Positions 4,101 through 64,000 of a DNA stretch of 64,000 bases are shown piece after piece. Each line of letters opens with the position of its first letter. The first letter of the stretch is position 1. Below the pieces are notes generated by a model. The model ran no database searches, was not told the origin of the DNA, and saw only the letters and a program-made list of their open reading frames with translations. Location: the NCBI RefSeq assembly GCF_905475395.1, contig NC_058340.1, positions 75,866,181 to 75,930,180 of the forward strand, read 5' to 3'. Made by a program: the position numbers and the translations under genes. Source of the stretch: Chrysoperla carnea (taxonomy: Eukaryota > Arthropoda > Insecta > Neuroptera > Chrysopidae).

Positions 4101-7100
4101 AATTAGAACAAAATTACGTTTATTAATTTAAAAAATTCCATTTGGTGTCTAAAATTACAGATTTATGGAAATAAATTTTTTCAAAACTATAGAAGATAGA
4201 TAGCTTCAACAAGTGGAGATAATACTTCGACTGGCACTGACATTCAACACTTTCTATACAGGGTATTTAAACAATTTACTTAGCCAATTGATTGTTTTTT
4301 TTTCCGCTCTAATAAGAGCTTTTTCATGCGTAGTAGCAAACAGCAGAGAAAAATTATTTTTCGAATAACTATAAAATCAAAATATAAACCATCATAGATT
4401 TGTTTGTATCTCTTTCTAGCAAAACAGAACTTAACATACGAGATATTATTACGCAAACATAGTATATGCCATCATGTAGAATGTTTGGTCTCTCTGTCTA
4501 ATTAGTAGCTTAAAATGCTTATATCACATCCGTATTTTTTGACTGATTTTAATTTCACTTTTTGTGAATTTTAGTTAAAAGGACATTTTGAAAACAAATA
4601 ATCATTTGCTCTTATATCAGTGATCCACTTAACTAAAAATTCTTGGCCATGTTAGAATCTCTTAGTGTTAAATGTTTATCTATTTAGTGTAAGCACTTTT
4701 TTTGAATGCCCTAAAAAAACACTTTTTATATTAAAAAAAGTGATATTTTGAAGTGTTACAGATACACTTGTGGATGTTATATCTTATAAAGGGAGTGATT
4801 TTTATTAATGTATCATCATGGTTATATCATACAATGATTGAATTGGAGTACCTTTTTAATAATGGTTTCAAAACCCATCCCAACATAATTCAAGCAGGTG
4901 ATGGTTGGTTAATATACATCTTATCTATCAATGATTACTCTATTTTTTTTTTTAACTATCTATCAAAAGTAATAAAAAATATAATAAAAATGGGGTCTTT
5001 TTAAATTAGTTCCATTTTTGTTATATTTTGGATTCAATAATTATCTTTTAAATGTATTGATGAAGAATTAGTTAAGGAAATAATAAGATCTGATTGGGAA
5101 TCCAATCGATTTTTAGTCAATTTTTTTACGAATACAAGATTTTCCGTTTTCTGTAAGATTTTCCATGCAAAAACAAATATCTTACTGTCTATATAGAATG
5201 TAATAAATTTTACGTAGATAAATTAAATTACAAGAAAATTTTATGTTGTCATAATAAATATCCTGATCAAACCAAATATAGGTAATGTACGCGTATATTG
5301 GGTTGACAACTAAATCAAAAGTATATCTTTTTTAAACTAATATTACAATTAATTCATACAGTAAAAAATTATAGATATAGTTTTAAAATTAAATTCCTTA
5401 AGGAATAAAAAAAAATATTTGACTTCTAAAATAAATACCTTAAATTTTTAGAAAAATATCGAGTAAATAAAAAAGTAACCGATACATTACTTTAGATACT
5501 ATACGAAAGGAATATAGTTTCTACCGAGTGCTCACGACATATCTCGTTTTTTTCTGAAGACACGAAAGTATATGAATCTAAAAGAAATCATTTTTGTCTT
5601 GTACCTTGTTTGGCTACATAGTTATGATAATCGATATATTCGGTATGATATCGAATGAAATGTACTGGATTTAAAATTTCTTATTTCTAAAATTGTTTAA
5701 AGTTTAATTTTAGGTAAATCAATAAATAGTAAACCAGTCAGATGGCAAATACATTTTTTTTTTATTTCAACATTTTTTAATGGTTTCCAATTATTTTAGT
5801 TAACTTACAACCAAATTATTAAATCAATATATCAGATATTTTTTTAGAATCAAATGATTAATTGCCACAAAATTGATCAATTTTCCATCTGGTTTTTTTA
5901 TTTTAAGTTTATTTCTATATTTTTTAAATATATAATTTTATTTAATTTTAAAATATTTATTATAAATATGATTATTTATAGTCGAGGTTCAACTGTAAAT
6001 AATAACAATAAATAATAATACAATAATAATAATTATAAAAATTTAATTATTTATGTAAAATGAGCAGTGAAAGTGTCATTAAATGGAATGATTTAAATCA
6101 CATATAAATAAATATAATAAATTATTTATTATTTATTGTTTTATCAGATTTATTTTTAAAAAAAATATACATTCCATAATTATTACAAATTTTAATAAAA
6201 TTAGTTTGATTTGCAAACAAATACTTGAGATCTGATCATTTTATACAAAAAGTCAAAAATCTTTTATTAGGAAAAAATAATTTATGCAAACTTTTTTTAA
6301 AATAAAATTAAAAAATCATAAAAGTAAAAAAGTAAATCGATAACTAAAAATTTAAACAATATGTATATCATATAATTATGGTGTAGGCGCCGAGAAATCC
6401 AATTTCTACTATAAATGGATATGTTTAATTCATTTAACTGCGCTTCCACCACAATAATCTTATTTCTGTGACAAAATTGAAATATTTACAGTCTAAGAGA
6501 TGATCGATAAAGTAACCCATCAGATAACCACCTGAGACATATTTTTTTATGCAATTTTATCTATTTATAAACACACTTAAGATAGCTTATCGAAAAGTAT
6601 TCTTGGCTAGATCTATCGAAAAGTATGCTTGGCTATTTCTAATTAAATTAATTTTCATCAAGTTTTTCCATAAACTGTTTTTTTCAGGCAAGCGCTTGTA
6701 TCGTTCCTTTTGTAATTAAATTATTTTTCTTCTGATAACAATTTCGATTGGTTAACAATCGTTGTAACTACCTATACTGACTTACCTGTTCATACGTTAT
6801 GAACAGATCTACAACGATCTGTTAACCTTTCGAAATTTGTATCAGAAGGCAGATAATTATGAAAATAATGAGTTGATGAGTCTGAAAAAAACCGCTCATG
6901 GAAAAAATTGATTAAAATTAATTTAATTAAAAATAACCATAAACAATCTTCGAGAGTCAAGCTAAACTTTTCTAGAAAAATCACAGCTTTCTCGCTTGTT
7001 GATGAATGATCTAAGAATATCTTCGGAATAAATTATTGACGTTTCAAATAAATCATATTACAATTACCGTAACTATAGTAACTAGAATACCTATGATACA

Positions 7101-30219: not shown

Positions 30220-30632
30220 CTACCTGCAAATTTTCAATTTCCTAACTTTTATAGTTTTGCCGAAATTGGACATCAAAGTTTCGTCCTAATTTATGACCTC
30301 CCGGGTAAACGGTGATGTTTATGAAAAAACGGTTTACATGATGGGACCTTCAGATCCAAGACCTTGACCTATGTTATTCATTTACGAACTCGACCTCATT
30401 TTTTACGTCCTGAGCTCGCTATGAAAATATCTACTTGATATTTCTTTTCGTTTTTGAGTAATCGTGTTCACAGTCGGACGGACGGATGGACAAACAACCG
30501 GAAATAAAGTAATAAGATGATTTTACGAACACGTATACCAAAATTTTGTTCGTAGTATCAATATTTTTAAGCGTTACAAACTTGGGACTAAACTTAGTAT
30601 ACCTTGATATATACTACAAATATATATGGCAT
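30220..30632 (-). repeat. P-family repeat, partial copy
   Basis: In order: GGTAAACGGTGATGTTTATG, GACCTATGTTATTCATTTACGAACTCGACC, TTTTTACGTCCTGAGC, TTTCTTTTCGTTTTTGAGT, GGACGGACGGATGGACAA, AAAATTTTGTTCGTAG and a terminal CTTGATATATACTAC stretch. It has the same orientation as the copy at 37240. Confidence 0.8.
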
Positions 30633-31581
30633 AAGAATTATATTTTAACTTGGCGCTTACAAAAATCATTAAAAATATTATTGTCAGTATTCATTTTTTC
30701 AAGTGATTCTTTTTGCACTTGATAACAAGCCAACGCCAGCCGCCTAGCAGCACCACTTAATCACCTAATTTTAGATGGTGTTTTGTTCTATAACTTAACG
30801 GCTATTTTATTTGTGTTAGGTAAAAAAAAGAAGGCTCAACTAACAACTTTTGAAGTATTGAATTTGTTTGTGTATACATAAATAAAGACCTAGAGACCCA
30901 TCCAAGCCCATTAATCTTGGATGAATATACACTGCAGGATATCCTTCTTCGTATCCTTCATCGTCCTCACAGCAGGTCTCAACTTTTTTTTTTTGTTATG
31001 TACGCAAATTTTTTCAGTTGTTTAGTGTTTTTGTTTCTTGACATTTTTTTTTTTTTAATTGAACACAAATGACAATCGTTTCACAGAACTGTCATTATAT
31101 TTATTATACAAGTTTTCTGTTGTTGTTGAAAATTTCTATTTTTAATATATACGTAATTTATAAATACCTTTTTTAAGGATTCCGTTTCTGTATAACATTT
31201 TCAGATGTATCGTTCCCCAAAAAAATGAGCGTATGAAAATATTTGAAACGTTTCAAATTTTTAGTATGGATTCTGTTAGAACTTAAGGATGTATGAGCAT
31301 GAAAACAATGTTTGATTTAAAGGCTCAAAATCTGTTTGTAGGTAGTCTTTTACTCAAAGAATATGTGGTTAAAATTTTAGCTTAGGGAACCGTGCAAATT
31401 TTTAAAAAAAAGTCATTAAAAATCGATATAAATTACATTGGCTCTTATGGAGGAATCTCAAAAAACGACATATTTTGGAAGTTTTTGATAATTTTCATTT
31501 GGAATGAATGAAAACAAATTTAAAAAAAACTTTTTAATTGAAAGTAAACATATTAGCAATGAATTAGAAAAGAAAAAACTA
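30633..31581. other. Spacer, no gene supported
   Basis: AT-rich with T-runs (30986, 31046). No coding signal. Confidence 0.5.
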
Positions 31582-37239: not shown

Positions 37240-37635
37240 CTCGATTTTTTTTCGTTTTTTTCAAAAATGTTTAACAAGACTACTAGTTGAAGCTACTTGC
37301 AAATTTGCAAATCCCTTTCTGTTATAGTTTTGGAAAAAAATGACGTTAATGTATAAATGTTGATTATTTTTTTATAAGGAACATTTTTTATATTTAAACT
37401 TTTGTTCTATCTCTATTTTCTATGTTGCTCATTTACAAACTCGACCTTAGTTTTTACGTCCTAAGCACGGTATCGGGATCACAGACAGGCAGACAACCGG
37501 AAATGGACTAATTTGATGATTTTATGAACACCTATACCAAAATTTTGTTCGTGTTATCAATAATTTTTAGCGTTACAAACTTGGGACTAAACTTAATATA
37601 CCTTGATATATATTACATATATACAGGACATAAAA
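37240..37635 (-). repeat. P-family repeat, partial copy
   Basis: Carries CTCATTTACAAACTCGACC, TTTTTACGTCCTAAGCACG, CAGACAGGCAGACAACCGG, CCTATACCAAAATTTTGTTC and CCTTGATATATATTACATA in the order of the copy at 30220. Confidence 0.8.
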
Positions 37636-38321
37636 TAGGGGTAGATTTTTGCAAGTATCTCAAAAAGTAATAGAAATTTTAGAAATTCTAAATAAGAAGA
37701 GAAAATTTTCTAAAAAAAAGTACCATCTCCCGGAATTTTAAGCTACCATGTTATCGCATGGCAAAATGAAATAAAATCTTTTACGCATTCTCTACATGGT
37801 AAATTTTTATAGTGTCAGTGTGCGTTAAACCTTAACAACAAGCCAAGGCTTATTTATAAGATGTGTAGTAATCTTGTTGACATTAGGTATCAACTACTGT
37901 AATTATTATTTCTACACTGACTTCATATTTCATTCAATTATCAATCAAAATTATAATAATGTTACTTGCTGAACATTCATCATCTTGTTTGTAATGTTGT
38001 GTGTGTGGATCCAGTTGTTAGGTCTTTTATAGGTCTCTTGGATCTATTACAAGATCTATTCATCCATCTTTAATAAACATCATAATTTCTCATCTATTCT
38101 ATATTATTATAATTATTTGTTTAAAAATTTGTTTAACAATACCGATATTATGATACCATAATACCTACCATGACTAGAGAAGACCATGGTATATAAATAC
38201 CGACTATAATCATGTGGGATCCTTTAAAAAAAGTTGTAAGGTTGTACGAAATTTGAGCAATTAATTACCTATACCTTTATCTAAATCAAAGATTGGATAA
38301 TTTTAATAGATTATTTTAAAG
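37636..38321. other. Spacer
   Basis: No gene supported. Confidence 0.5.
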
Positions 38322-46751: not shown

Positions 46752-48139
46752 CTATGCAGGGAGTCCAGCTGCAATTCCAGATTCAATACCACAATGATCA
46801 GATCCACGTAATATTTTAAAGTATCCATTATCACCCCAATCAGTGTTCCATGAGTTTGCAATTATCCAATATGGTGTACCATTCTCAACACCCCAGCCTA
46901 ACATTCTAATTGCATGGCCACCTAAAACTTTACCTTGGACGTGTTGGTAAACACCTGCAAAAACAAATTTAATTTATGAGTGATTTCTATAAATATCGAA
47001 CTTCGTTGACACTTTGTGTCCATAGCCCCCATTAAGTAATTTCTTCAGAAAGCTTAGAATTACAACATATCAAAAATTCAAACAATTTAGCCTTGGGAAT
47101 CCAGAATTCCCATAAGGTTTATGCGTTTCAATAAATATTTTACCTGATTTATAATGTAATAAATCTTCATAAACAGTTAAAGCAGCTTCCACAGGTCCAT
47201 TTTGCATAATTTCCATTTTAATTTTGTCTTGATCACTACTGATTGAGTACGCTCGTTGGCCAAAATGTAAATCCTTTCTGAATGGAACAGAATATTCTGA
47301 GTTTGTACATTCCTTTTTACATTTGGGAGTTTTACCCTCACCGCTACATGCAGGACGTGTACCATTTACATGGTGTTCGCATGGTGGAATTTCGTAAGGT
47401 TGACATCCCTAAAAAAAGTAATAAAATTAATTTCAAATAATTTTGAGTATCATTAGCTGTAAATTTTACAATAGTGTTTTGGCTAAAATGTTATATACGC
47501 AAAATTGAAGATAAATAATTATTACCTGGTTTGAACCATATGATCCGCCACTGACTAAGCCTTTGCTTACCCAATACCGCCAAGCATTACCTGGAAAACC
47601 ACCGTTGCATCCAAATCCACAAATTCGGCAACATGAAACTAATTCTTCTGCAGAAAATCTAAAATGTTTGGTACCATTGGAATGGATACAAAAACGATCC
47701 GAAATGGCTTCAACAGCTCCAAATGCCTGAAAAATACAATAATTGAAATAATAATCAAGCAAGACAAGCAAAATTTTAAATGGGTGATTTTTTTTATACT
47801 CACCCAACATGATCCACACGAGCCTTGGTCTCGAATTTCTCGAATTGTTGGACATTGTGGCCATTGTTGACGTGCATCAAAATTTTCTGGTAGTTCTTGA
47901 ACTGACATTAATAAATGATCCTCCTTTTCTGGTAAACGGTATTTATGTGAATCGGGATGTACTCCCATCAATCTCTTGATGTATTTCATTGAAACATCTG
48001 GGGCAAAATTTCTGCCAGCTGTCCATGTTGATGAATGTTTATTGATTTGATTGATGAATTTATCGGATAATGGATGAAAATCACTTAATCCTAAACATAG
48101 CGTTCCGCCAAATATTAACAATATGCATATTTTTAACAT
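46752..48139 (-). CDS. Cathepsin B-like cysteine protease, gene A
   Basis: Coding exons 48139-47804, 47726-47526, 47408-47144 and 46954-46752 join at GT-AG sites into 334 codons. Residues 1-16 are a signal peptide ([17 protein letters not shown]) and about 18-85 the propeptide. The mature enzyme starts near [19 protein letters not shown] places the catalytic Cys at 111, [11 protein letters not shown] the His at 281 and NSWNTDWG the Asn at 301. CEHHVNG carries the two occluding-loop histidines (191-192), the mark of cathepsin B that allows dipeptidyl-carboxypeptidase activity. Expected role is lysosomal or secreted gut proteolysis. Length equals the usual family length. Introns are 77, 117 and 189 bp. 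Exon 1 ends exactly after the Trp of the active-site motif. All frames are intact and the gene looks functional. It is the most divergent of the three copies. Confidence 0.95.
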
Positions 48140-48147: not shown

Positions 48148-48191
48148 CTGAAAAACATTTTAATAAAAAACAACGTTTATTTCAGTTTTTA

Positions 48192-48245
48192 TACCATGTG
48201 TATATGAAATATACCAAGGTTTTCTAAGTTTAGTCGTTGCAGAAT
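48192..48245 (+). repeat. P-family terminal fragment in first intron of gene A
   Basis: ATACCATGTGTATATGAAAT, then CTAAGTTTAGTC, matches the end of the P element that sits at the same relative position in gene C (60660). Its presence in both genes at one site means it predates their duplication. Confidence 0.75.
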
Positions 48246-48643
48246 ATTCAAAACATCGAAAGACAATTTCTTTTTCAAAGAAATTTTTTGATGACTATTC
48301 AATCGTCTATATAGGCAATACACGTTGCACATATGTTTTACACAAAGTATGAACTGAATTTTTTTAAAGAAATATTTTATGAAAAGGTTTAATAGCTTAT
48401 TTAATTAATTTAAATTAAATTTTAAAGATAGATTACAAAAAGTTTAGGCAAAATTAAAAAATCTTTAAAATCACAGATTTAAAAAACCTATTATTTATAA
48501 TCAAAGACGTCATTTTTAAATGAAGTTAAATACTTTACAAAACAAAGGAATTAACAATAAAGAACAAACTTATTTAAACTTTTTCAAAATTAAATTCAAA
48601 ATATTTGATTAATAAATAATTTAACAGAGAAATAATGACTTAC

Positions 48644-48794
48644 ATGAATTTGATCTGTTGATTAACTTAAACTAAAAAAAACAAAACTAATTAAAGTTGA
48701 TTGTATTGTTTAATCAAAGTGCGTTGCATCAGTTTTAGAGACTACTCTCTACTCTCACAAACTGAACGATGAATAGTATATTTTATTATTGTGT
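48644..48794 (-). promoter_or_regulatory. Non-coding first exon and core promoter of gene A
   Basis: On the minus strand AATCAACAGATCAAATTCAT|GTAAGT ends a non-coding exon at 48644, with a perfect donor. The same words stand 1.3 kb upstream of gene C. Upstream, TTCAGTTTG (A at 48763) fits the arthropod initiator, and AATAAAATATACTATTC (from 48787) is a TATA-like stretch. The distance is shorter than usual (about 24), so the exact start is uncertain. The first intron would be 48643-48148. Confidence 0.6.
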
Positions 48795-48879
48795 TTTTTA
48801 GATAACAAAGATCCAGAAGTTCATTAAAATCTGAATCAGCTGATAAAAATATTCTTATAATTATTATTATTATTATTAC

Positions 48880-49565
48880 AGTATCGAGGTCATGACATCA
48901 CATGGCTATGTTATTGATTTCATCATGTGCGCCGTGTCTACATTTTTATTGGGTTATAAAGAACGTTTGCAACAATAAACTGTAGGCCATGTTTTAAATA
49001 ATGATATAAGAGAATTATTCAACGGTTAATTGTTTAAACATCTTTCCGTTTACAGGGTGTAGTCTTTAAACCGAAAAATGGGTCGGATTTAACGATTGTA
49101 TTTTTATTGTTAATCAAAATGGATCTTGATGCCATTTAAACTATGGATAAAACATACAAAATTAATAAATTATGTCAGCATTTTTAGATATTTTGTGGCA
49201 AGACAGCCTATTTAAAAGCCTAGAAATATATAAAATTTCTGGCTTTTTTTCAAATCCGATTTTAAAGTTGAGTTAAATAATCAACCCGCATAGTTTAGAC
49301 TTAAGAAAAAAATATTCAGTTCTTATAATTCGAAATAAGCATGCTGATAAAAATTGTCACAGTAGGTCGGAAATGTTTTTGGGGGTGCTCTAACAATTGA
49401 AATGAATGGCGTTCATATCAGTCCCAAAAAATACGAAAATCTTATATAATTTGACGATTTGGCGCGTATGTTGTTGAATACAAATAACTATTGTTTATGC
49501 TTTGTGTTTATAAACAATTCATAGATCTGATTTTGTATCTCACTTCCAAGACATTTTCTTACATC
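48880..49565 (-). promoter_or_regulatory. Upstream block conserved between genes A and C
   Basis: GGTCATGACATCAC, GGCTATGTTATTGATTT, GAACGTTTGCAA and, further on, ATTTGGCGCGTATG, GTTGAATACAAATA and TATCTCACTTCCAAG recur in the same order at 62146-62930 upstream of gene C. This block is duplicated DNA that may hold enhancers. It has no counterpart at gene B. Confidence 0.7.
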
Positions 49566-49935
49566 AAAATAATTTGGTTTATTTATTTGCTTGCTAAAAA
49601 AGATATCAGAAACAATGATAAAATTCTTAAAATTCTTATCGTGCAGTTACATTTTTGTGTAAAGGTGTAAACGAAAAGATTTGAAAAATAAAATAGAAAA
49701 CAACGGGATTGAAGTAAGAAAGAAAGAGATGAACAATCAAATATTATGATGAAAATATGTAGAAATTATTATTTTGTCATATTCTAGTAATCCAAATATT
49801 TTGTAATTTTTTTGTTAGCAATATGTGGATTAAAAAAAAATTATGTCTTCATAAAGATGATTGCGTTCGTAGAATTATAACCTATCAATTTACTGAAACC
49901 GAAAAATTCAATCTCATATAGCAATATTATAAGAA
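49566..49935. other. Junction between 5' block of A and 3' block of B
   Basis: AT-rich. Part (49630-49700) resembles the centre of the P palindrome at 63540-63620. No gene. Confidence 0.45.
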
Positions 49936-50801
49936 TGAAGTTCACTATGCTTATTACACATTTGTAATACAAGTTGCATAAGCGAGTTGTGTAATTTTTT
50001 TTTAATTTTAAGGTCGCTTTTAGCGTCTAGGTCATTAGCGACCGCAGAGATTGTGTGAATTTATTTAGTGTATATCCGTAAAATAAAATATTTTTTGGAA
50101 TAAAAAAAATATTTCAAAAATCAAAAACTCCGGCTGAGTTAAATATAAACTGAAAAGGAAAAACAAGTTCTGAAGTTCTGCAGTTTACATAGCGACAACA
50201 GTCGGGACCTATTCAAATCTACAGGGGCTCTAATATTCCCAATAATAGGTCCCGACTGTTAAAGTCGCTATTTTTTTTTTTTTTTACTTACCCGTTTTAG
50301 TCAGGATTTCAGCCTATGTATGTATGTTTTGTCCTTTGAGTCGCCCTAGAGATCAAATGCGTGAACGATTTGTCTATTTAATAGCTATTTACTGTTTTGT
50401 TGTTTTCCTTTTTTTTCCTGAAAGACGAGGTGATTTTAAAGGGTCTCGGATGAACCTTATGAAAAAGGCTAATTCATACTGCTGATGATTACATCGTAGT
50501 CGTTGGGGCAAATTTTAAATTTCGTATTTTGGCCGGAAATTAATTCAAGGATACCGGATAGAGTAGGATTGTAATTCATGTTTTAATTGTTAACAATAGA
50601 AATATTAACATGATATAATGTTAACCCTTCACCGATTGCGTGAAATTTCCGTAAAGAGTTGGTAATGTAGCAGCGATGTGCCACAATGTTAAGATTTTTA
50701 CACTGTTTTAATTTTTCTTAGGTTTTTTATATTTGGTATCAAAAAAATAACAACATTTACTTAATCATAAAAAATAAATATTAAATTATAAAATAATAAA
50801 A
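49936..50801. repeat. 3' flanking block of gene B, paralogous to 58181-59172
   Basis: TGAAGTTCACTATGC at 49935 begins a stretch that matches the DNA after the LINE poly(A) (58181) over most of its length, with a few insertions. It shows the unit of segmental duplication (gene plus 3' flank). It contains the hairpin at 50189-50271. A variant polyadenylation signal AGTAAA (50761-50756 on the gene strand) replaces the AATAAA seen at gene C. Confidence 0.85.
50189..50271. repeat. Hairpin H1 in 3' flank of gene B
   Basis: ATAGCGACAACAGTCGGGAC... (50189-50213) pairs with ...GTCCCGACTGTTAAAGTCGCTAT (50244-50271), an almost perfect stem of about 25 bp around a 30-nt loop. A T-run follows. The partner at 58446-58528 has the same stem with one changed pair. 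Confidence 0.85.
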
Positions 50802-52207
50802 TTATTTTAAGTCCTGTGCAGGGAGTCCAGCCGAAATTTCAGATTCGATACCACAATGATCAATTACACGTACTTTTTTAAAATATCCATTGTCACCCCA
50901 ATCAGCATTCCATGAGTTTGCAATTAACCAATATGGGATACCATTCTCAATACCCCAGCCTAACATTCTAACTGCATGGCCACCTAAAACCTTACCTTGG
51001 ACGTGTTGATAAACACCTACAAAAAACAAATTTAATTTATGAGTGACTTTTATAAATATTTTGATCGTAATGACTCCCTAACGAAATACAGGGCTGTCTT
51101 AAAAAATATTTTGACGTTATAGCACGTCAATAGCAACATAAAATGGCATTTTTTTACAATATTTTACCTGATTTATATTGTAAAAAATCTTCGTAAACAG
51201 TCAGGCAAGCTTCCACAGGTCCATTTTGCATAATTTCCATTTTAATTTTGTCTTGATCACTACTGATTGAATACGCTCGTTGACCAAAATGTAAATCCTT
51301 TCTGAATTCAGTCGCATATTCTTTGTTTGTACAATATAAATGACATTTTGGAGTTTTATCCAAGCCGTTACATGCGGGACGTGTACCGTTTATATGATGT
51401 TCGCATGGTTGAATTTCGTAAGGTTGACATCCCTAAAAAAAGTTATATAATTTATTTGAAATAATTTGCAGTATCATTAACTGTAAATTCTAAAATAAGG
51501 TTACGGCTTGGTGGGCCATTTTAAACTATGCATCCAAATATCTCTGTATATGCAAAATTGAAAATACATTATCTGGATTGATTATTATTACCTGATTTGA
51601 ACCATATGCTCCGCCACTGACCAAGCCTTTTCTTACCCAATATCGCCAAGCAAAACTTGGATAACCACCGTCGCATCCAAATCCACACATTTCGCAACAT
51701 GAAACTAATTCTTCTGCAGAAAATCTAAAATGATTGGTACCATTATAATGGATACAAAAACGATCCGAAATGGCTTCAACAGCTCCAAATGCCTGAAAAA
51801 TACAATGTTTAAAATAATAATCGCAGGACAAGCAAAATTTTAAAGGTGTGGTTTTTTTTCGTACTCACCCAACATGATCCACATGAGCCTTGGTCTCGAA
51901 TTTCATGAATTGTTGGACAATTTGGCCATTGTTGACGTGCATCAAAATTTTCTGGTAGTGCTTTAGCTGGCATAAATAAATGATCCTCCTTTTCTGGTAA
52001 ACGGTATTTATGTGAATCGGGATGTACTCCCATCAATCTTTTGATGTATTTCATTGATAAATCTGGTGCAAAATTTCTGCCAGCTGTCCATGTTGATACA
52101 TGTTTATTGATTTGATTGATAAATGTATCGGATAATGGATGAAAATCAAATCTAGATCCTAGACATAGCGTTCCGCCAAACATTAATAATAACCATAATT
52201 TTAACAT
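50802..52207 (-). CDS. Cathepsin B-like cysteine protease, gene B
   Basis: Coding exons 52207-51869, 51792-51592, 51432-51168 and 51016-50802 join at GT-AG sites into 339 codons. Signal peptide, propeptide, catalytic Cys112, His282 and Asn302, and the occluding-loop histidines 192-193 are all present. Introns are 76, 159 and 151 bp. It is closest to gene C: it shares the SRFD insertion after the signal peptide, the 159-bp second intron and a C-terminal extension after GLPA (QDLK here). Two changes stand out in the conserved C-terminal block: Lys316 where A and C have Ile, and Val319 where A and C have Gly. The leader acceptor (52215) is kept, but no first exon or promoter like those of A and C lies upstream. 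The frame is open, but expression is doubtful. Confidence 0.93.
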
Positions 52208-52245
52208 AATGGAATCTGAAAAATATTTTTAATAAAAATCAACGT

Positions 52246-52586
52246 TTATTTCGATTCTTGTTACAACTCTTATAGAGAGAAGACATAAATATTTAATTGT
52301 CTACAACAATAACAAGAATTATTATTTTTATCAAAAATAAAATAAATTGATAAATCCAATATTACTGCATAATTGTTAAAATTTTGTTTGTTTGTTTGTG
52401 ATATACCTTTTTTGTTTATAACTTAGGTGAGTCGGATACTTTATATATATATATATATATCTGTTTTTGTAATACTAAATTTGTTTTTACTATATTTTTT
52501 CTAAAAACTTATTGTGTCTTTTAGTACATTTAAATTAATTAAAATTTTTATTGAGTTTTTTTACAAATAAAATCAACTTTTAAGAG
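52246..52586. other. Unmatched DNA between gene B and LINE ORF1
   Basis: Homology of gene B to A and C ends near 52245. The next 340 bp contain an (AT)n tract (52441-52460) and match nothing else recognised in the window. It may be the 5' UTR of the LINE, residual host DNA, or filler at a deletion junction. Confidence 0.55.
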
Positions 52587-53960
52587 GTGGCTGAGGATGA
52601 TCCTCCGCCAGACCCTTCTCGGAGGGGTCTGGAAGACCCTCCTCCAAATCCCGATACTCCAGTAAATATTAATAATCCACCCGATCTACCCAATATCTCT
52701 ACGAAGGAAAAACCTGTCTACAAATATGCGATAAATTCACTAGGACCCTTCAAAGTATTTTTAGAGTCAAATGAAAAAAATCTAGGAAGATTGCATCCGT
52801 TGGCAATTGGGCGCATATTGTTTAATAATAATGTACCCAACATTGTCAAAATAGAAAACTTGGGACGCAATAGGATTTGTATCCAATTTAACTCCCGTAC
52901 TGCCGCTAACTCTTTCTTGGACAATCCTGTACTAAAAACTGAAAACCTTCGCGCCTATGTTCCTACCCACTGTGTCACTCGAGTGGGTGTTGTTAAAGAC
53001 ATCGATGAAAATATTGATGAACAAATTATTCTTGATAATATGAAAAACAACAAAAACATAAACATTCTAAAAGTTCATCGAATGTCAAGAAGAACAACAT
53101 CCCCCGATGGCACACCATCCTATAAACCTTCCTCAACCATTCAAGTAACCTTTGAAGGTAGAAATCTTCCCGATTATATTACCCTATTTTATTGTTCCCG
53201 TCCCGTAGAAATGTACACATTTCCCGTGACCCAATGTTACAATTGCTGTAGATTTGGGCACATTACAAAAAATTGTAAAAGCTCACCACGTTGTGCCAAA
53301 TGCTCCGAAGACCACCAATCATTGAATTGCACAAAAGATGACAGCTTACCAAAAATATGCATTAGTTGCAATGGTGACCACTCTGCTACCTATAAGAACT
53401 GTCCAGAGTATAAAAGGCAAGTTGCCATTAAAAAAATTATGGCCTCAGATGGCTTAACATATTTTGAAGCCAGTGGTAAAGTACCCAAAATCTTAAGCAA
53501 TGTAACCCTTCCTAATCCTATTAATGTGTCGTCTACCCCGCAACAATTTCCGTTACTGTCGTATAACTCTTCTCCAATCGCCACAACGACTAGACAAACA
53601 ATTCGACGAACGTACTCTAAGGCTACTACTTCACCAACTACCGCCCCTGTTCCCAAGAAACGAAAAGATTCCTCTCCCCTTACAAATCCTATTGCGGCCC
53701 AAATTGATAATCTGTTGATTAACCCCAACGGTAGGTCGAATTCTCCCATATTTTATAGCTTAACATCTACTTCTACTACCTTACCCTCCCCCAACGACCC
53801 ATTTTTTTCTACACTTATCTCAGTTTTGAACTCCTTTGAATTAGACCCAACTATCAAAGCAAACATTGTACAAGCTATTATAAATAAAATCACTAATGGA
53901 TCAGGTGTCCCAAGAACTCAAACTGCTTCAATGGAACATCCGAAGCCTCAATCAAAATAA
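52587..53960 (+). CDS. LINE ORF1, nucleic-acid-binding gag-like protein
   Basis: An open frame of 457 codons. An N-terminal Pro/Asp-rich tail precedes a globular region (about 45-210), probably RRM-like, containing RAYVPTHCVTRVGVV. Three zinc knuckles follow: CYNCCRFGHITKNC (217-230, CX2CX4HX4C), CAKCSEDHQSLNC (236-248) and CISCNGDHSATYKNC (258-272). A Ser/Thr/Pro-rich tail ends the protein. It would coat LINE RNA and act as a chaperone. The frame opens with GTG, directly after TAA GAG. No in-frame ATG occurs before residue 152, so either an ATG was lost by one change or the element is slightly 5'-truncated. It overlaps ORF2 by 65 bp in another frame, as is usual in the group. Confidence 0.9.
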   Translation: MAEDDPPPDPSRRGLEDPPPNPDTPVNINNPPDLPNISTKEKPVYKYAINSLGPFKVFLESNEKNLGRLHPLAIGRILFNNNVPNIVKIENLGRNRICIQFNSRTAANSFLDNPVLKTENLRAYVPTHCVTRVGVVKDIDENIDEQIILDNMKNNKNINILKVHRMSRRTTSPDGTPSYKPSSTIQVTFEGRNLPDYITLFYCSRPVEMYTFPVTQCYNCCRFGHITKNCKSSPRCAKCSEDHQSLNCTKDDSLPKICISCNGDHSATYKNCPEYKRQVAIKKIMASDGLTYFEASGKVPKILSNVTLPNPINVSSTPQQFPLLSYNSSPIATTTRQTIRRTYSKATTSPTTAPVPKKRKDSSPLTNPIAAQIDNLLINPNGRSNSPIFYSLTSTSTTLPSPNDPFFSTLISVLNSFELDPTIKANIVQAIINKITNGSGVPRTQTASMEHPKPQSK

Positions 53961-56900
53961 ATCCAACCTGGCTCTCATTTTATTTACCTATCCCATTGAT
54001 GTTGTATTGCTTAGTGAAACTTGGCTAAAACCAACCTCAACATCAAAAATTCGTGGATATCAAATTTTCCGGAATGATAGATATGATGGCTATGGTGGCA
54101 CTACGATTCTTGTAAGGAGGGGTGTTTCTGCCCAACTTATTCCGATTGAGTCGAATAACCCTTATTTCCAGGTAATCGCGGTGAGAGTTGCTGGCATATC
54201 TATAGTTTCCATCTATAATAATTCTTCTCAAAATATTTTATCTTCCGAAGAACTAAACCTAATGTTTCAGAATGTTCCCGAACCTGTAATAATTGCCGGT
54301 GACTTAAATTATCATCATCCTCTATGGGGTTGCACTGCGTCCGATAGAGGAGGTGATATTCTAATGGAATTCATGGATTCCAATAACTTGGTTTGCATGA
54401 ATGACGGATCACCGACAACTATTCCTTCACCTCAACAAAGATCATCTGCTATCGATATCTCTTTTTGTTCTCCTCACCTAAGCTTAATTTCGTTCTGGCA
54501 TACATTAAATGATAGCTATGGTAGCGATCATTTTCCCATTTTAATAACCTTAAATCATCAACATAATTTATTCCTCCCCAGACATACCCCCCGTAGACAG
54601 TTCGAGAGAGCAGATTGGCCTCTGTTTTCTCGTACTGTAGACGACTTTCTTCCACCCCCCACATCCGATAATAATCCCTTGGAATGGTATTCCAGTTTTC
54701 ATCAAAGTTTGGTCTCTGCTGGGGATATAGCCATTCCAAATACCAAATGTCCTAAAAAACCGTTTTCCCCAACACCTTGGTGGGATGACGAATGTAAATT
54801 GCAAATTCAAACCAGGAAGGAGGCCTTGAGGTCCCTCAAGGCCAATTTTACACAAGATAATTTTTGTAATTTTAGAAGAACCCAGGCACAAACCAGGCGT
54901 CTATTTAAGGAAAAAAAGCGGAATTCCTGGAAGATTTTTTGCGAAGGTCTTTCCAGAAGTACGCCTATTAAAGAGATCTGGAATAAGGTTAAGATGTATA
55001 GGGGGGCTATCAACCCATATCCTCCTTCTCCATCAAACCAAGGTTGGATCTTAAATTTCTTACAGAATCTGACTCCAGACTTTGCCCTTATACCTATTCA
55101 AACCCTGCCCGCCCAAAATGATCATCCTATGGATCGTCCGTTCGGAATATGTGAGCTAAGGGGTGTGTTGTCTGGTCTAGTGGATTCGTCTCCTGGCCCG
55201 GATAACATATCCTATAGTATGTTGAAAAACTTGTCGGACAGTACAATATCATTTTTTCTGCCAATATTAAATCAACTACTTAGTAGCTCATCTATCCCCG
55301 ACGAATGGAGACATACGATGATCATTCCAATCCTTAAACCCAATAAAGACCCTAATATACACCAATCTTACCGTCCCATTGCGCTAGCCTCGTGCGTATC
55401 AAAGGTTACGGAACACCAAGTAAAAAACAGGTTGGAATGGTGGTGTGAATACAATAACATAGTTCCACCATACTCACGAGGCTTCCGTAAAAATGCCTCT
55501 ACCCTAGATAACCTTTCTGTACTCTTGACCGATATCCAGATTTCTCTCTCCGAGAATGGATACCTGGTTTGCTGCTTGATTGACGTGAAAGGAGCCTTCG
55601 ATAATGTTGACATTAATATTCTCATTAACATTCTCACGTCTCTGTCGGCTCCCCCTGGACTAACTTCTTTCATCTACGAATTTTTAAAAATTCGTCATCT
55701 CACCGTCAACTACCAAAATCATTTATCCGGTCCTAGAACTGCATCAATGGGCTTACCCCAAGGTGCAGTCTTGAGTCCCCTTCTCTTCAATATCTATACC
55801 TCTGGCTTACAGAATGTAATTCAGCCTCCCTCTCAACTCCTGCAATACGCAGATGATCTTGTCCTATACTCGTCGTCCAAATCCTTACAAACGGCTATAG
55901 ATAATGTTTCAAACGCTCTAGCTTTACTGCATAGCCATTTAAGATCTATCAATCTGGAAATTTCTGCTACAAAAAGCTCAGCTCTTGTTTTCTCTAGGCA
56001 CAGATACAATATCGAATCAATTCCGTTTCTCAACACATCCATCCCTTGCCACCCATCCGCAAAATTCCTAGGAGTCTTTTTTGATGGAAAGTTGCAATGG
56101 AATTCCCATGTCGAATATATCGTAAGTAAGTGTACTCCTCGAATTAACATCCTCCGTGGCCTCACCAAAGTTTGGTGGGGAGCTGATCAAAGTACTTTAC
56201 TTATGATATACAGACAAATCATTCGAAGTTTCATCGATTATGGCTCATTCCTCCTATGCCCATTATCAAACCAACGATCTTCAAAGTTAGATAAAATCCA
56301 GTTTTAATCCTTGCGTATTGCCCTAGGACAAATGCGCTCCTGCCCTACTAACGCCCTATTGATTGAAGCAGCGGATCCTCCATTGATAGTCCGTCGTCTG
56401 TATTTGGCAAAAAAAATTTTCCTCAACCAATATTCCTCCTTATCCCACCCGCTAATTCCAAAACTTGCCCAACTCAACCAGCTTTGTACAAATTCGACCT
56501 ACTGGAGAAATAAAAATCTCCCTCTTCTCTTGGTGGCTTATCGTGTATTTGCAATAATCCCCATTTATCAATCTCTTTTATCTCCCTTCTTCACCTTTGA
56601 CTTTCCATCCCGATATACGGAAATCCCGGTATTTATTGATTGTGGACTTGACAGCGGACATGCAAATTATGGCTCGCCCTTCGTCAATTCCACTTTCAAT
56701 GATTACCTTTCCTCAATTCTCCCCAACTATACCTACATCTATACAGATGCTTCTAAGTTGAGTGTAGATTCACGTGTGGACGTTGCGTTTCATTGTGGTG
56801 CGCATTCTGCCACACTTAGTTTATCACAACATTTTTCAATTTTCTCTGCGGAATGCGTTGCCATCTTGGAGGCACTCTCATACGTGGACTCAAACAGTAT

Positions 56901-57591
56901 TAGGAAAACAGCTATAATATCCGACTCGCTGAGTTCTCTCTCGCTAATAAAACAAAATTGCATCTCCTCTAAAACTCCCTCCCTCATAGTACTAATCAAA
57001 AACACCGTACTGAAACTAATTCAAAAACGTTTCTACGTTGCTTTTGTGTGGTGTCCATCACACATTGGTATAGGTGGGAACGAATTTGTTGATATGTTGG
57101 CTAGGGACGCAGTTCATATTGGACCAGAAGATAATTCACCTCCACCCGCACAAGATCTGTGGGCTATCTGCAAAAGTTCTAGGCTGAGTGATTGGACCCA
57201 AATGTGGAATACATCGCCTAAAGGGCGTAAGCTACATGACATACAACCAACTCCATCACTTGAAACATGGTTCCACAAATGGGAAGTGGGCAGGAAAAAC
57301 ATAACAATGATTGGTCGCTTGAGAACAGGCCACAATTCGTTACCTGCCCATCTACATCGAATACATATTGTCCCAGACACCAGATGTAGATGTGGATATT
57401 ATTATTGTGACATAAATCACATAACGTTCGCCTGCCCACTCCTTAATCAGCATAGACCTATTCTTCTAAGTTCCCTAGCCCGTATGGGCGTTTTTGGTCC
57501 GTATTATATTCCCCATCTCCTATCTTTAAATAAGCTTGAAATCCTCTCTGCAATTTGCAACTTCCTTAACAAGTCCAAATTTCAAATATAA
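53896..57591 (+). pseudogene. LINE ORF2: endonuclease, reverse transcriptase, RNase H (one internal stop)
   Basis: Domains in order are as follows. APE-type endonuclease (about residues 8-220): LLQWNIRSLNQ, LLSETWLK, IAGDLNYHHPLWG, YGSDHFPI. Reverse transcriptase: SYRPIALASCVSK, CLIDVKGAFDNVD, GLPQGAVLSPLLFN, and YADD at about 650. RNase H (56740-57100): YTDASK, SAECVAI, ISDSLSSL and GNEFVDMLAR, giving all four acidic residues. A terminal Cys/His cluster, CRCGYYYCDINHITFACP, follows. A TAA at 56305-56307 interrupts between RT and RNase H, and the frame continues without shift to 57591. All catalytic motifs look intact. The product would nick target DNA and copy the element RNA. The stop separates RNase H from RT, so this copy is probably inactive though recently active. 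Confidence 0.93.
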
Positions 57592-58180
57592 ATATAACCC
57601 CTCCCCCTTCTTATCTATTTTTTGTTTTATATTTAAAAAAAAAAAAATAACAATAAAATAAAATTGTGTGTAGCCCCCTCTACTGTCAACCCTTCCGCGG
57701 CCCCCAACCTATGTTTTTTTCGTGATATTTCCTTTGTATACAGTCTCGACGGGTCCCGGCGACGAACTTCCTGTCTAATTCCATATGTGTCCTTGTGTTC
57801 GTAAAATAGAAAGTTTCATTTATTTGTATTTTTATTAATTTTTTTTTTTCTTCTCTGTCTTCTCCTACTCTTTTTTTTAACTGAATTTTTTATATTTTTT
57901 CTATATTTGTAATTTATATATTGAATTATTATGATTTTTTTTTTTTTTTTTTTGAGATTCATCTTTTTATTTTTGGATACTATAAATCAATTTATTTTTA
58001 TTTTTTAATTTCTAAATTACACTTTTTTTTTTCTCCTGAATGTTAAATTTGTGTTTTTCTGGTCTATTTATTATTTAATTATTTATTGTAATATAATTGT
58101 ATACTTTATTTGGATAATGGCTGTATAGCAAATTTGCTGAAGCCAATTTTAATAAAAAAAAAAAAAAAAAAAAAAAAAAA
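57592..58180 (+). other. LINE 3' UTR and poly(A)
   Basis: T-rich tract-filled sequence with several long T-runs. It ends GCTGAAGCCAATTTTAATA and then 27 A (58154-58180). The clean A-run supports recent target-primed insertion. Confidence 0.85.
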
Positions 58181-58445
58181 TGAAGTTCATTATGCTTATT
58201 ACACATTTGTAATACAAGTTGCATATGCGAGTTGAGTGAATTATTTTTTTTTTTTAAATTTAATTTAAGGTCGCTTTTAACGTCTAATTCATTAGCGACC
58301 GAAGGGATTGTGTGAGTTTATTTAGTGTATATCCGTATAATAAAATATTTTCTCGAATAAAACAAATATTTCAAAAATCAAAAACCCCGGCTGAGTTAAA
58401 TATAAACTGAAAAGGAAAAACAAGTTCTGAAGTTCTGCAGTTTAC

Positions 58446-58528
58446 ATAGCGACAACAGTCGGGACCCATTCAAATCAACACGGGCTCTAATATTCCTAAT
58501 AATGGGTCCCGACTGTTAAAGTCGCTAT
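58446..58528. repeat. Hairpin H2 in 3' flank of gene C
   Basis: Same stem as H1 at 50189-50271. Here position 58467 is C and its partner 58504 is G, where H1 has T and A. The pairing is preserved while the loop has several unpaired changes. Confidence 0.85.
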
Positions 58529-59113
58529 TTTTTTTTTTTACCCGTTTTAGCTAGGATTTTTAAACATCTATTCAACGATACCCCACTTACCATAATTTGT
58601 CGACTTTCATTTTCAGCCTATGTGTGTATGTATGTTTTGTCCTTTGAGTCGTCCTAGGGATCAAATGCGTGAACGATGTGTCTATTTAATAGCTTTTTAC
58701 TGTTTTGTTGTGTTTTCCTTTTTTTCCTGAAAGACGAGGTGATTTTAAAAGCTCTCGGATGAACCTTATGAAAAATACTAATTCATACTGATGATGATTA
58801 CATCGTAGTCGTTGGGGCAAATTTTAAATTTCGTATTATGTGTATCTACTATTTTACATTACGCAACTTGCGCTTCTTCCATATTTTTGGCCGGAAATTA
58901 ATTCAAGGATACCGGATAGAGCAGGATTGTAATTCATTTTTTAATTGTTAACAATAGAAATATTAACATGATTTGATGTTAACCCTTCACCGATTGCGTG
59001 AAATTTCCGTAAAGAGTTGGTAATGTAGCAGCGATGTGCCACAATGTTAAGATTTTTACACTATTTTAATTATTCCTAGGTTTTTTATATTTGGTATCAA
59101 AAAATAACTACAT

Positions 59114-59119
59114 TTATTT
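59114..59119 (-). terminator. Polyadenylation signal of gene C
   Basis: AATAAA on the minus strand, about 55 nt past the stop codon. The aligned site at gene B is AGTAAA. Confidence 0.6.
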
Positions 59120-59172
59120 AAACATAAAAAAATAAATATTATGATACTTAATTAGATTAAAAAATAATAAAA

Positions 59173-60608
59173 TTAGTTTAATTTTTGTGCAGGGAGTCCA
59201 GCCGAAATTTGAGATTCGATACCACAATGATCAATTCCACGTACTATTTTAAAATATCCATTGTCACCCCAATCAGCGTTCCATGAGTTTGCAATTAACC
59301 AATATGGTGTACCATTCTCAACACCCCAGCCTAACATTCTAACTGCATGGCCACCTAAAACTTTCCCTTGGACGTGTTGATAAACACCTGCAAAAAAACA
59401 AAAATATTTTATGAGTGATTTTCATAAATATTGTCAATTAATTATACGATGACTCCATTAAACTGGGAAATAGCGACAAATTACTGAGAGATGTTTAAAA
59501 ACGACTTTTAGTGTTGGAAAATTAAAGATGCCACCGCGTGTGACCATTCCTAAGGGAAATATTTTACCTGATTTATATTGTAAAAAATCTTCGTAAACAG
59601 TCAGGCAAGCTTCCACAGGTCCATTTTGCATAATTTCCATTTTAATTTTGTCTTGATCACTACTGATTGAGTACGCTCGTTGACCAAAATGTAAATCCTT
59701 TCTGAATTCAGTCTTATAATCTTTGTTTGTACAATCTAAATGACATTTTGGAGTTTTATCCAAGCCGTTACATGCGGGACGTGTACCGTTTATATGATGT
59801 TCGCATGGTTGAATTTCGTAAGGTTGACATCCCTAAAAAAAGTTATCTAATTTATTTGAAATAATTTGCAGTATCATTAACTGTAAATTCTAAAATAAGG
59901 TTACGGCTGGGTGGGCCATTTTAAACTATGCATCCAAATATCTCTGTATATGCAAAATTGAAGATAAATTATCTGGATTGATTATTATTACCTGATTTGA
60001 ACCATATGCTCCGCCACTGACCAAGCCTTTTTTTACCCAATACCGCCAAGCAAAACTTGGATAGCCACCGTTGCATCCAAATCCACACGTTTCGCAACAT
60101 GAAACTAATTCTTCTGCAGAAAATCTAAAATGATTGGTACCATTGTAATGGATACAAAAACGATCCGAAATGGCTTCAACAGCTCCAAATGCCTGAAAAA
60201 TACAATGATTGAAATAATAATCAAGCAAGACAAGCAAAATTTTAAATGGGTGATTTTTTTTCTACGCACCCAACATGATCCACATGAGCCTTGATCTCGA
60301 ATTTCTTGAATTGTTCGACAATTTGGCCATTGTTGACGTGCATCAAAATTTTCTGGTAGTGCTTTAGCTGGCATAAATAAATGATCCTCCTTTTCTGGTA
60401 AACGGTATTTATGTGAATCGGGATGTACTCCCATCAATCTCTTTATGTATTTCATTGATACATCTGGTGCAAAATTTCTGCCAGCTGTCCATGTTGATAC
60501 ATGTTTATTGATTTGATTGATAAATGTATCGGATAATGGATGAAAATCAAATCTAGATCCTAGACATAGCGTTCCGCCAAATATTAATAATACCCATAAT
60601 TTTAACAT
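59173..60608 (-). CDS. Cathepsin B-like cysteine protease, gene C
   Basis: Coding exons 60608-60270, 60192-59992, 59832-59568 and 59387-59173 join into 339 codons. Residues 1-17 are a signal peptide. The propeptide runs to about 83, and the mature enzyme begins near [14 protein letters not shown]. Catalytic residues are Cys112 (QGSCGSCW), His282 ([11 protein letters not shown]) and Asn302 (NSWNADWG). The oxyanion Gln is 106 and the occluding-loop histidines are 192-193. Introns are 77, 159 and 180 bp. The donor after exon 1 is GTGCGT, weaker than GTGAGT in A and B. The conserved C-terminal block [14 protein letters not shown] is normal and the protein ends GLPAQKLN. With its own promoter, first exon and AATAAA, it looks fully functional. 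Expected to be a lysosomal or gut-secreted protease. Confidence 0.95.
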
Positions 60609-60659
60609 AATGGAATCTGAAAAATATTTTTAATAAAAATCAACGTTTATTTCAGTTAA

Positions 60660-61150
60660 TATACCGTGTATATATAAAATATATCAAGGTATACTAAGTT
60701 TAGTTCCAAGAGTTTAGTACGAACAAAATTTTGGTATAGGTGTTCATAAAATCATCTAAGACCCAATTGACCTATGTTTCTCATTTACGGATTTCGCCTG
60801 ACTTTTTACGTCCTAAGCACACTATAAAAATCTTAGTTTGATATTTTTTTTCGTTTTTGAGTTATATAGACAACCGTCTGTCTGCCAACACGATAACTCA
60901 AAATTACAAAGACATCAAGCTGAAATTTTTACAGCGTGCTTAGGACGTAAAAAGTGAGGTCCAGTTCGTAAATGAGTAACATAGGTCTTGGGTCCGTAGG
61001 ACCCATTTTGTAAATTGTTAAAGAACAAAAGTTTAAATGTAAAAATGTTCCTTGAGAAACAAATAAATAATATTGTAGGTATCATTTAAGAAAGGATTTT
61101 TCGAAATTTATCCCCAAAAAGAGTTAAATAGGGATTGAAAGTTTGTATTA
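60660..61150 (+). repeat. P-family repeat inside first intron of gene C
   Basis: Begins with TATACCGTGTATATATAAAAT and CAAGGTATACTAAGTTTAG, then AACAAAATTTTGGTATAGGTG. An internal inverted segment has TTTTTACGTCCTAAGCACAC on one side and GTGCTTAGGACGTAAAAAGT on the other. The first intron of gene C spans about 61952-60617, so the insert adds some 450 bp to it. Confidence 0.85.
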
Positions 61151-61952
61151 AAATATATATACAAGTAACATAGGCTGTAATTTATTTTCAGCACAAGAGA
61201 AGGAACTAATCTGAGCGATTTCAAAGGTGAACTATAATTTCCAAGACTAGTCAATGGAAATATTCCAATTTCCGTCAGATTGAAAACTGGTTATAACGGT
61301 GACATATACATGTTTATTAATATTTTATGTATTTGTAAGTGATTACATTATTTTAAGTAGATATGTATACAGCGTGTTTATTAATAAGTTATTTTTGTAC
61401 CGTGTGTCAATTGAAATATATATTTTTTTACATCTTAAGTATGATTTGAATACATTTTGAACTTTTTTGGGTTATTCGATATATTTTCTTCAATTATAAA
61501 AATAGTTTTTTTGAATTACGATTAATATACCTACTCAACAATCGTTGAATGTGATATTTTGTTCTATTCAAAATTAAAACATGTTTATTATTTATTTGTA
61601 CCAATCCCCGATTTTATTAAAAGGGCTATTACATATTCAAATAATATTGCCTTTGGCCAACTTAGAAAAATTATTTTCAAATTTATGCTGTTAAGTGGTT
61701 CTGGGTGTTACTTATCGAGATTTCTTTTTTAAGGTAAATCGCTAATCTACTCTGTTCAGAAAATCATTTTCTAATCCTTCTGTAATATTTCAAGTAAATT
61801 ATTATTTTACTTTGGGAGCTTATATCCAAAATAAATAGAGCTGTGAAACTTTCACTTTAACAAAAATGAACAAACCTATTTTAATTTTTCCAAAATTAAA
61901 TTCAAAATATTTGATTAATATATAATTTAAAAGAGAATTATAAATGACTTAC
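61151..61952. other. Rest of the first intron of gene C
   Basis: AT-rich, with no recognised element. Confidence 0.5.
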
Positions 61953-62100
61953 ATGAATTTGATCTGTTGATTAACTTACAATTTAAAAAAAAAAGTTATA
62001 TTGATTGTATTTTTTATTCGAAGTGTGTTACATCAGTTGATGAAACTCTGAGTACTGACCAACTCAACAATAATGATTGTAATTAATAGCATATTTTATA
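61953..62100 (-). promoter_or_regulatory. Non-coding first exon and core promoter of gene C
   Basis: TTAATCAACAGATCAAATTC then AT|GTAAGT ends the exon at 61953. On the same strand TATAAAATAT lies at 62100-62091, with candidate start sites at GTTGAGTT (about 62067) and TCAGTA (A at 62056). The A and C promoters align closely except for an indel of about 8 bp between the TATA and start regions. Confidence 0.6.
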
Positions 62101-62145
62101 GTAAGTAAACAAAGAACCAAAAGCTCATTAAAATCATTATCAGGG

Positions 62146-62930
62146 TCATGACATCACCTGGTTATGTTATTGATTTTATCATGAGCCTCATTTCTATGCT
62201 TTTATTGGGTAATGAAGAACGTTTGCAAAAAATAAAGTTTCGGCCACGTTTTTAAAAAAAAGATATAAGAGATGTACGCAATTGTTTAAGCATCCTTCCC
62301 TGTATACGGTCTCAAGATTAAAAGCCATTTAGAGAATATAAAAAGGCATTTTAATGTTTTGCTTCAACGATTTAGTAAAAGGAAAAAATTAATGCATCTT
62401 CTAAAATTTCCACAGTTCTTTATTAGGAAGGAAAACTTTATAAAAAAAAGTCGACCTCTCAGGGGCGTACCTAACTTTCTTTTTTGGCGAGTAGTTGGGT
62501 CTCCCATTTTTGGGGAATAACAAAAATGTGCATATTTGTGCAAAAATTCGGAATCTTCTAACGGTTTACAAGATGGAATTAATAAACAACTGTGGAAAAT
62601 TTCAAAGATGCATTAATTTTTTCTTTTTTACCAAGATATTTTATTTAATTTTGTTGTACGAATTGGAATAAGGGTATTCAAAATATTATCTGAGATAGCT
62701 CCAATATCTTTAAAATTACTCGTCCAACAACCTTCTTTGAGGGCTAAATCTGCGATTGCTAGCAATTGATATGAATGGCGTATATCAGCCATCAATTATA
62801 AGATAAATCTGTGTCATTTGGCGCGTATGATGTTGAATACAAATATTGTTTACGCTTTTTCTAGTAAACAAGGTATTTATAGATTTGACATGTATATCTC
62901 ACTTCCAAGGTTACCTATAAATTTTCCTGA
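62146..62930 (-). promoter_or_regulatory. Upstream block conserved with gene A
   Basis: Counterpart of 48880-49565: GGTCATGACATCACC, GTTATGTTATTGATTTTATC, GAACGTTTGCAA, ATTTGGCGCGTATGATG, GTTGAATACAAATA and ATCTCACTTCCAAGG. TGACATCA-like and GGCGCG words are shared by both copies and could be binding sites. Confidence 0.65.
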
Positions 62931-62944
62931 CCTACACCAACAAT

Positions 62945-64000
62945 TTATTTTATGTACCGAGTATATATGAAATATATCAAGGTATACTAAGTTTAGTCCC
63001 AAGTTTGTAACACTTAAAAATATTGATGCTACGAGCAAAATTTTGGTATAGGTGTTCATAAAATTCATTTACGGTTGTCCGTTTGAATATCTACCCGTCT
63101 GTTTGTCTGTCTGACAACATGATAACTCAAAAACGACAAAGATATCAAGCTGGAATTTTTACAGCGTGCTTAGGACGTAAAAAGTGAGGCGGAGTTCGTA
63201 AATGAGCAACAAAGGTCAATTGGGTCCATCTTGTAAACCGTTATAGATAGAACAAAAGTTGAAAATGAAAAAAATGTTCCCTATAAAAAAATAAACAACT
63301 TTTGTTTCAAATATTTTCACTGTTTATCGGTGAGAGCACAAATTGTATGGGAATATCAGTCGCGTCTGTGTGTCATGTACGTATGCCTGGGTATCTAAGA
63401 GTGGCTATGTCTCTTTACTTTTATGACGTGAAAAAACAAACGATTGCGTAATCAAGACTGTCTATACATGGTATTTCAACAATTAATTCAGTCAATTATT
63501 TGTTTTCACGTGTTTTTCTTTTTTTAATTTGCATTAAAAAAAATCATAAATAATTATAAAATTGTTAAAATTCTTATCACGAGATTACGTAGAGGAAAAT
63601 AATTGCAAAATAAAGTAGAAAACAAACAATTGACTGAGTTAATTGTTGAAATACCATGCATAGACAGTGTTGATGGCGCAATCGTTTGGCTTTTTACGTA
63701 ACGTAAGTAAAGAATAATACATACTATAAAATTTGCGCCCTTTCGGGTAAACAGTGATGTTTACGAAAAATTGTTTTGAACAAAGTTGTTTATTTTTTTA
63801 TAAAAAAAATTTTTTACATTTAAACTTTTGTTCTATCTCTAACGGTTTACAAGTTAAGTCCTACGAACTCAAGACTCAATTGATCATTTACAAACACGAC
63901 CTCACTTTTTAGGTCCTGACCACACTATAAAAATTCCAACTTGATATCTTTTTTCGTTTTCGAGTTATCGTGTTGTCAGACAGGCGGATAGACAGACAAC
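62945..64000. repeat. P-family element, large palindrome cut by the window end
   Basis: The left half (62945-63510) runs from a TATATGAAATATATCAAGG end through TTAAAAATATTGATGCTACG, TGTCCGTTTG, GATAACTCAAAAACGAC, CGTGCTTAGGACGTAAAAAG, AAACAACTTTTGTTTCAAAT to TCAACAATTAATTCAGTCAATT. The right half (63622 onward) repeats this inverted, from AATTGACTGAGTTAATTGTT to the CAGACAGGCGGATAGACAG end of the window. The spacer is about 110 bp. The other P copies are single halves of this structure, so this one shows the full architecture. It carries no open frame. Confidence 0.85.

Follow-up and report, generated by a model that had tools for sequence, protein, structure and literature searches.

The tandem cathepsin B-like genes

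The window analysed here is the whole stretch of 64,000 nucleotides taken from the Chrysoperla carnea genome (contig NC_058340.1, positions 75,866,181 to 75,930,180), and all coordinates below refer to it. It carries a tandem trio of cathepsin B-like genes, A, B and C, all on the minus strand, which splice models resolve as full-length genes of four coding exons, their open products being 334, 339 and 339 residues long. The coding exons lie within 46752..48139 in gene A, 50802..52207 in gene B (51869-52207, 51592-51792, 51168-51432 and 50802-51016) and 59173..60608 in gene C. The gene B product matches the Pfam families Peptidase_C1 and Propeptide_C1 and aligns with the human procathepsin B structure 1pbh (E 4.4e-131, residues 18-337); by eye, the alignment contains the propeptide, the catalytic Cys/His/Asn regions and the HH of the occluding loop. 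By these resemblances gene B is a member of the cathepsin B (C1A) family, with a protease activity that is only predicted. The dS values are 0.06 for B-C, 0.155 for A-C and 0.174 for A-B, and on this measure B and C are sister copies. A protein search of the genome returned 18 exon-wise matches, 12 of them in genes A, B and C and the remaining six at 28-40% identity; by this search, there are only three close cathepsin B copies in the genome. Intron 4 differs between B (51017-51167) and C (59388-59567) at 58 of 151 aligned sites, against 2-9% in the adjoining introns and exons, and looks like a local replacement.

Genes A and C share an upstream region

Upstream of their coding exons, genes A and C are collinear in a self-comparison of the window: a P-like start is followed by a block with a splice donor and then by a farther block. 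The first common block occupies 48551-49058 in A and 61857-62310 in C, the farther one 49390-49550 and 62759-62909. The longest identical run between the two genes, 36 nt, contains the donor (48634..48669 in A and 61943..61978 in C, both minus strand), whereas identity beyond 48240 averages 62% (794/1275). From position and conservation, we infer that this run is the end of a non-coding exon 1 and that the two conserved blocks (48551..49550 in A, 61857..62909 in C, both minus strand) include the promoter. The sequence-only reading had already described a first-exon block and a farther upstream block kept in the same order in A and C, and the self-comparison and the 36-nt identity agree with it. 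It had also described a TATA-like region there; the conserved block stands, and this label, like that of promoter, is supported by position and conservation, a scan for a TATA word paired with an initiator having given no match in A and one loose match in C, where 0.40 are expected by chance.

The 381-bp block 61880-62260 of gene C was searched against the genome (559 Mb, 337 contigs), very common words being passed over; it matched gene C itself and gene A (70%), and no third copy was found. A move of the gene B promoter to another place in the genome was rejected on this count, with the block present at two places only. The repeat family that the earlier reading called P is found at 60656-64000, 1010-4104, 30328-30637 and 37355-37637, in inverted and direct copies, and part of it lies inside intron 1 of both A and C.

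The homology of gene B breaks at the first base of a LINE

In both the self-comparison and a three-way alignment, A/B and B/C homology stops at 52252, 45 bp 5' of the gene B ATG. The break reported earlier is thus real, and its position moves from about 52245, or 38 bp before the ATG, to 52252. What remains upstream of the gene B reading frame is a remnant at 52208..52252 (minus strand) of 8 nt of leader and 37 nt of intron 1, identical to gene C at 45 of 45 positions and retaining the splice acceptor TTTTTCAG. The splice model and the three-way alignment confirm that the frame is open and the acceptor kept. Beyond the break, the interval 52253-52580 resembles the upstream regions of A and C at chance level, its scores being reached by 33-73 of 100 shuffles; as a control, the A intron scores 128 against C, with a maximum of 44 in 100 shuffles. 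On homologous promoter sequence between 52245 and 52586, which the sequence-only reading had named as fatal to its claim, this comparison stays at shuffle level. The same interval is closer to significance in two other comparisons: 5 and 8 of 100 shuffles reach its scores against the LINE body, and 3 of 100 (one strand) its score against the gene B 3' flank. The best match to the 36-nt A/C block in 52201-58200 has 15 mismatches, compared with 14 for the best chance match in the window. With the block not found in 52253-58179 and no third copy in the genome search, the loss by gene B of its first exon and conserved upstream block, as proposed from the letters, is supported by the shuffle test, the block scan and the genome search.

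The stretch that follows the break had been read as about 340 bp without homology, with a LINE as the neighbour past it. It belongs to the LINE. When the genome was searched with the B junction, 32 dispersed matches appeared in addition to genes A, B and C, and 22 of the 32 stop at 52252-52253 (query 148-149). The query 52230-53100 finds 17 other places at 93% or more. Fifteen of them (L010-L024) extend to the 5' end, of which 13 begin at query 23-24, corresponding to 52252-52253. The two outliers begin at query 27 (L013) and 12 (L014); the matches of two further copies begin at query 254 (L027) and 235 (L028), their 5' pieces being separate matches from 24 and 58. The flanks of the other copies differ from one another, and their first bases are GATTCTTGTT or near it. 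Since most of the other copies start at 52252-52253, the interval 52253-52586 is the 5' UTR of the LINE (334 bp, plus strand), which begins at the first base of the family. Its reading as a relic promoter, spacer or filler was rejected: it stands at chance level against the A and C upstream regions, and the dispersed copies show a LINE.

The rest of the element follows on the plus strand. ORF1 (52587..53960) is open from a GTG and contains CCHC-like clusters by eye, with no Pfam match at E 0.001. ORF2 (53896..57591) encodes an APE-type endonuclease, a reverse transcriptase and an RNase H domain (PF14529/PF03372, PF00078 and PF00075) and carries one in-frame stop at 56305-56307 and no frameshift. 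The 3' UTR and poly(A) tail fill 57592..58180, the last A perhaps belonging to the flank. From these comparisons the LINE is full length, from 52253 to about 58180, and with its endonuclease, reverse transcriptase and RNase H we take the family to be I-group-like. Around the start of ORF1 (52572-52600) an in-frame TAA precedes GTG GCT by two codons, an early in-frame ATG is missing, and the same GTG is read in the diverged relatives L032 and L035; translation of ORF1 may begin at a codon other than AUG or in some other way.

Both ends of the LINE meet gene-related sequence directly. Its first base falls exactly at the homology break, and its poly(A) adjoins the gene C 3' flank (58181..59172, minus strand), whose homology to the gene B 3' flank starts where the poly(A) ends. 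The homologous B and C copies extend over 49931-52252 and 58176-60653, and the gene B 3' flank offers a paralogous unfilled site at 49931..49975 that matches the 3' junction. With its ends abutting the break on one side and the C 3'-flank homology on the other, the LINE occupies the position of the entire B-C spacer. At the 5' junction the LINE reads GA where A and C read AG; microhomology, a frequent but not constant trait of LINE insertion-mediated deletions, would here depend on the target sequence that was lost.

The LINE lacks a target-site duplication

The 17 other LINE copies (L010-L026) were followed to their 3' ends, and the tail was located in 12. All 12 have target-site duplications of 12-17 bp; in L016 and L017 a duplication is visible by eye, and L019, L025 and L026 fall outside both counts. 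The copy next to gene B has no target-site duplication and shows a 6-bp A-rich match only. This match is at chance level: among 156 mismatched flank pairs, 63 share 5-6 bp, nine share 7-9 bp and none shares 10 bp or more. An argument that 11 of the 12 duplications begin with AA, like the 3' flank here, was dropped, those As being indistinguishable from the tail.

In 7 of 15 copies, this one included, the heptamer CAAGTTG/CAACTTG is found no more than about 45 bp from the tail, against a rate of 0.11 per kb in the window, which suggests that the family has a preferred target repeat. The 3' junction of this LINE consequently looks like a usual site of the family. The seven copies are this LINE (58180-58225), L012, L014, L015, L021, L023 and L024, several of them with the heptamer within ATACAAGTTGC.

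A probable insertion with target deletion

We put at roughly 0.84 the probability that a single LINE insertion, accompanied by a target deletion of about 1.8 kb, removed exon 1 and the upstream block of gene B. A full-length I-group-like LINE would have been primed at a site in the gene C 3' flank, and the 5' end of its cDNA joined to a break in intron 1 of gene B, 37 bp upstream of exon 2. The spacer between the two points would have been lost, and with it exon 1 of gene B, its donor, the upstream block and the far edge of the gene C 3' flank. That host DNA is missing beside the 5' end of the LINE is judged from the paralogs A and C alone, and the same two genes indicate what the B-C spacer would have contained before the insertion. 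If it resembled the A-B spacer, which measures 1759 bp over the matching span (48184-49942), the lost span would be about 1.8 kb; the upstream sequence shared by gene C reaches 62909, 2256 bp from the break, and the two figures together give an estimate of about 1.8 kb or more. By the same reasoning the lost block would have been the gene B promoter.

The alternative that fares best is improbable. Two LINEs of the same family, one in intron 1 of gene B and one in the gene C 3' flank, could have recombined, deleting the promoter and leaving one LINE with unmatched flanks. Recombination of this kind would likewise leave no target-site duplication and keep the 5' end intact; the 3' UTR of this LINE is more diverged from the other copies than the rest, as a mosaic might be, and the target repeat carried by the gene C 3' flank raises the odds of nearby insertions. 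It requires, however, two insertions in the same orientation within about 2 kb. The 559 Mb contain at least 22 places that match this 3' end at 87% or more, this copy included (40 of 89 candidates scored), a density at which random placement predicts fewer than 0.01 such pairs. The divergence of the 3' UTR is moreover unremarkable, as 3' UTR exchange is seen in L010 and L012. These two copies (3' pieces L041 and L043) are 96-99% identical to this LINE in four 5' bins and 74-77% identical in the 3' UTR; by this comparison, exchange of the 3' UTR occurs within the family.

Far less credible is a gene B that was born truncated, its duplication having broken in intron 1, with the LINE either arriving later or making a target-site duplication of 2.3 kb. 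The intervals 49931-52252 and 58176-60653 do flank the LINE exactly as a giant direct repeat would, and the older age estimate from the 3' UTR (see below) weakens the argument from age. Nevertheless, the B and C copies are older than the 5' part of the LINE, a gene without constraint since its birth would have kept an open frame with P 0.004, the 12-17 bp duplications of all 12 scored copies speak against one of 2.3 kb, and it would take a coincidence for a later LINE to strike the old junction to the base. Giant duplication and truncated duplication alike were rejected as unlikely on LINE age, reading frame and duplication length. An assembly error that collapsed an existing gene B promoter, conceivable with LINE copies up to 97% identical that could mislead an assembler, is hardly credible, given a junction that is base-exact at the LINE end and no third promoter-block copy found in the 337 contigs.

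Timing of the insertion

The non-coding sites compared between B and C (3' flank, 3' UTR and introns 1-3) show 67 differences in 1127, about 3% per lineage; intron 4 (58/151) was excluded as not alignable. For the LINE, the terminal branch is 0.0107 over the 5' 2.3 kb, where 13 of 2281 sites are private (L019 left out). At the end of ORF2 the private sites number 1 of 397, in the 3' UTR 15 of 525 (L024 left out), and a tree of the last kilobase, built without L010 and L012 with their different 3' UTR, gives an older value of 0.027. As all parts of a LINE decay alike after insertion, the lowest parts bound its age and place the insertion after the B-C duplication. The excess in the 3' UTR is read as an older divergence of an unsampled subfamily; a mosaic of two LINEs would fit as well.

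Relation to known LINE-mediated deletions

In human genomes (PMC7058536), an L1-mediated deletion lies 5' of a single insertion with a poly(A) and without a target-site duplication; the deletions, from about 0.5 kb upwards in size, number 90, with 18,636 L1 events in all. The gene B locus has the same features: a poly(A) marks the 3' breakpoint, the LINE is intact to its first base on the 5' side, the DNA in between is missing and there is no target-site duplication. It differs from the human cases in its LINE, which is I-group-like and full-length, in another genome and present in one assembly, and in what was lost, namely exon 1 and the upstream region of a duplicate gene. Such deletions were virtually absent in 39 loci in a second study (PMC2837659), and a third (PMC7303202) concerns a HeT-A-like insert in a Drosophila transgene line. 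Tandem cathepsin B copies are known from other insects as clustered duplicated genes, for instance in aphids (cathepsin B is mentioned many times in PMC5304397); compared with these, the trio here has three close copies only, one of them without its upstream region. Among the literature matches listed for deletion and insect terms, no case was recognised in which a LINE deleted the promoter of a duplicated insect gene; the process is already known, and the insect case seems new to us.

The locus is a cleanly dissected case in which a duplicate would have lost its control region in one step with its protein intact, and paralogs A and C on both sides provide the comparison. The case suggests that the process best known from human L1, LINE insertion with target deletion, operates in this arthropod genome too, and at this locus one can test directly whether loss of the control region kills a gene or is followed by a new drive.

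State and expression of gene B

Since the split, gene B has acquired 9 replacement and 7 silent changes and gene C 6 and 4, with 2 unassigned. Rates were taken from the 3' flank, where 762 bp contain 47 substitutions and 7 gaps, and 80% of indels were assumed to break the frame. On this basis a gene B unconstrained since the duplication should carry about 5.6 frame-breaking changes (P 0.004), and one unconstrained since the insertion about 1.9 (P 0.15). None is seen, so gene B was probably kept by selection through most of its life, and the frame says nothing on its present state. A silent/replacement test on gene B alone is weak, P ranging from 0.04 to 0.19 with kappa and the treatment of unassigned sites, and these counts were discarded as a guide to present expression.

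We lean towards a gene B that is silent or nearly so, its normal transcription having been lost too recently for damage to the frame. It is less likely, though possible, that gene B is still transcribed, either antisense from the LINE 5' UTR, which starts 45 bp from the gene B ATG, or from the gene C promoter, with C exon 1 spliced over about 9.7 kb to the retained acceptor. The latter is a third route beside the two that the sequence-only reading had offered, silence or a new promoter. The acceptor and the frame are intact, and this copy and 14 of the 15 others compared have the antisense word TATATAAAG in their LINE 5' UTR, L013 being the exception. These TATA words are common by descent in a stretch of 18% GC and so amount to one observation, and a motif scan found no TATA-initiator pair in the new upstream stretch of gene B. 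Antisense promoters are described for UTRs of the Drosophila telomeric non-LTR elements HeT-A, TART and TAHRE (PMC5537684), and a LINE UTR placed head-to-head with a gene could likewise transcribe it; the family here is a different one and its promoter activity putative. That the LINE 5' UTR itself acts antisense as a new gene B promoter, through this TATA word and the retained acceptor, is doubtful; if true, a single insertion would have put the duplicate under new control rather than silencing it. The replacements N154D, I316K and G319V in gene B, at residues common to A, C and human procathepsin B, hint at a recent relaxation of constraint and to that extent speak against continued transcription.
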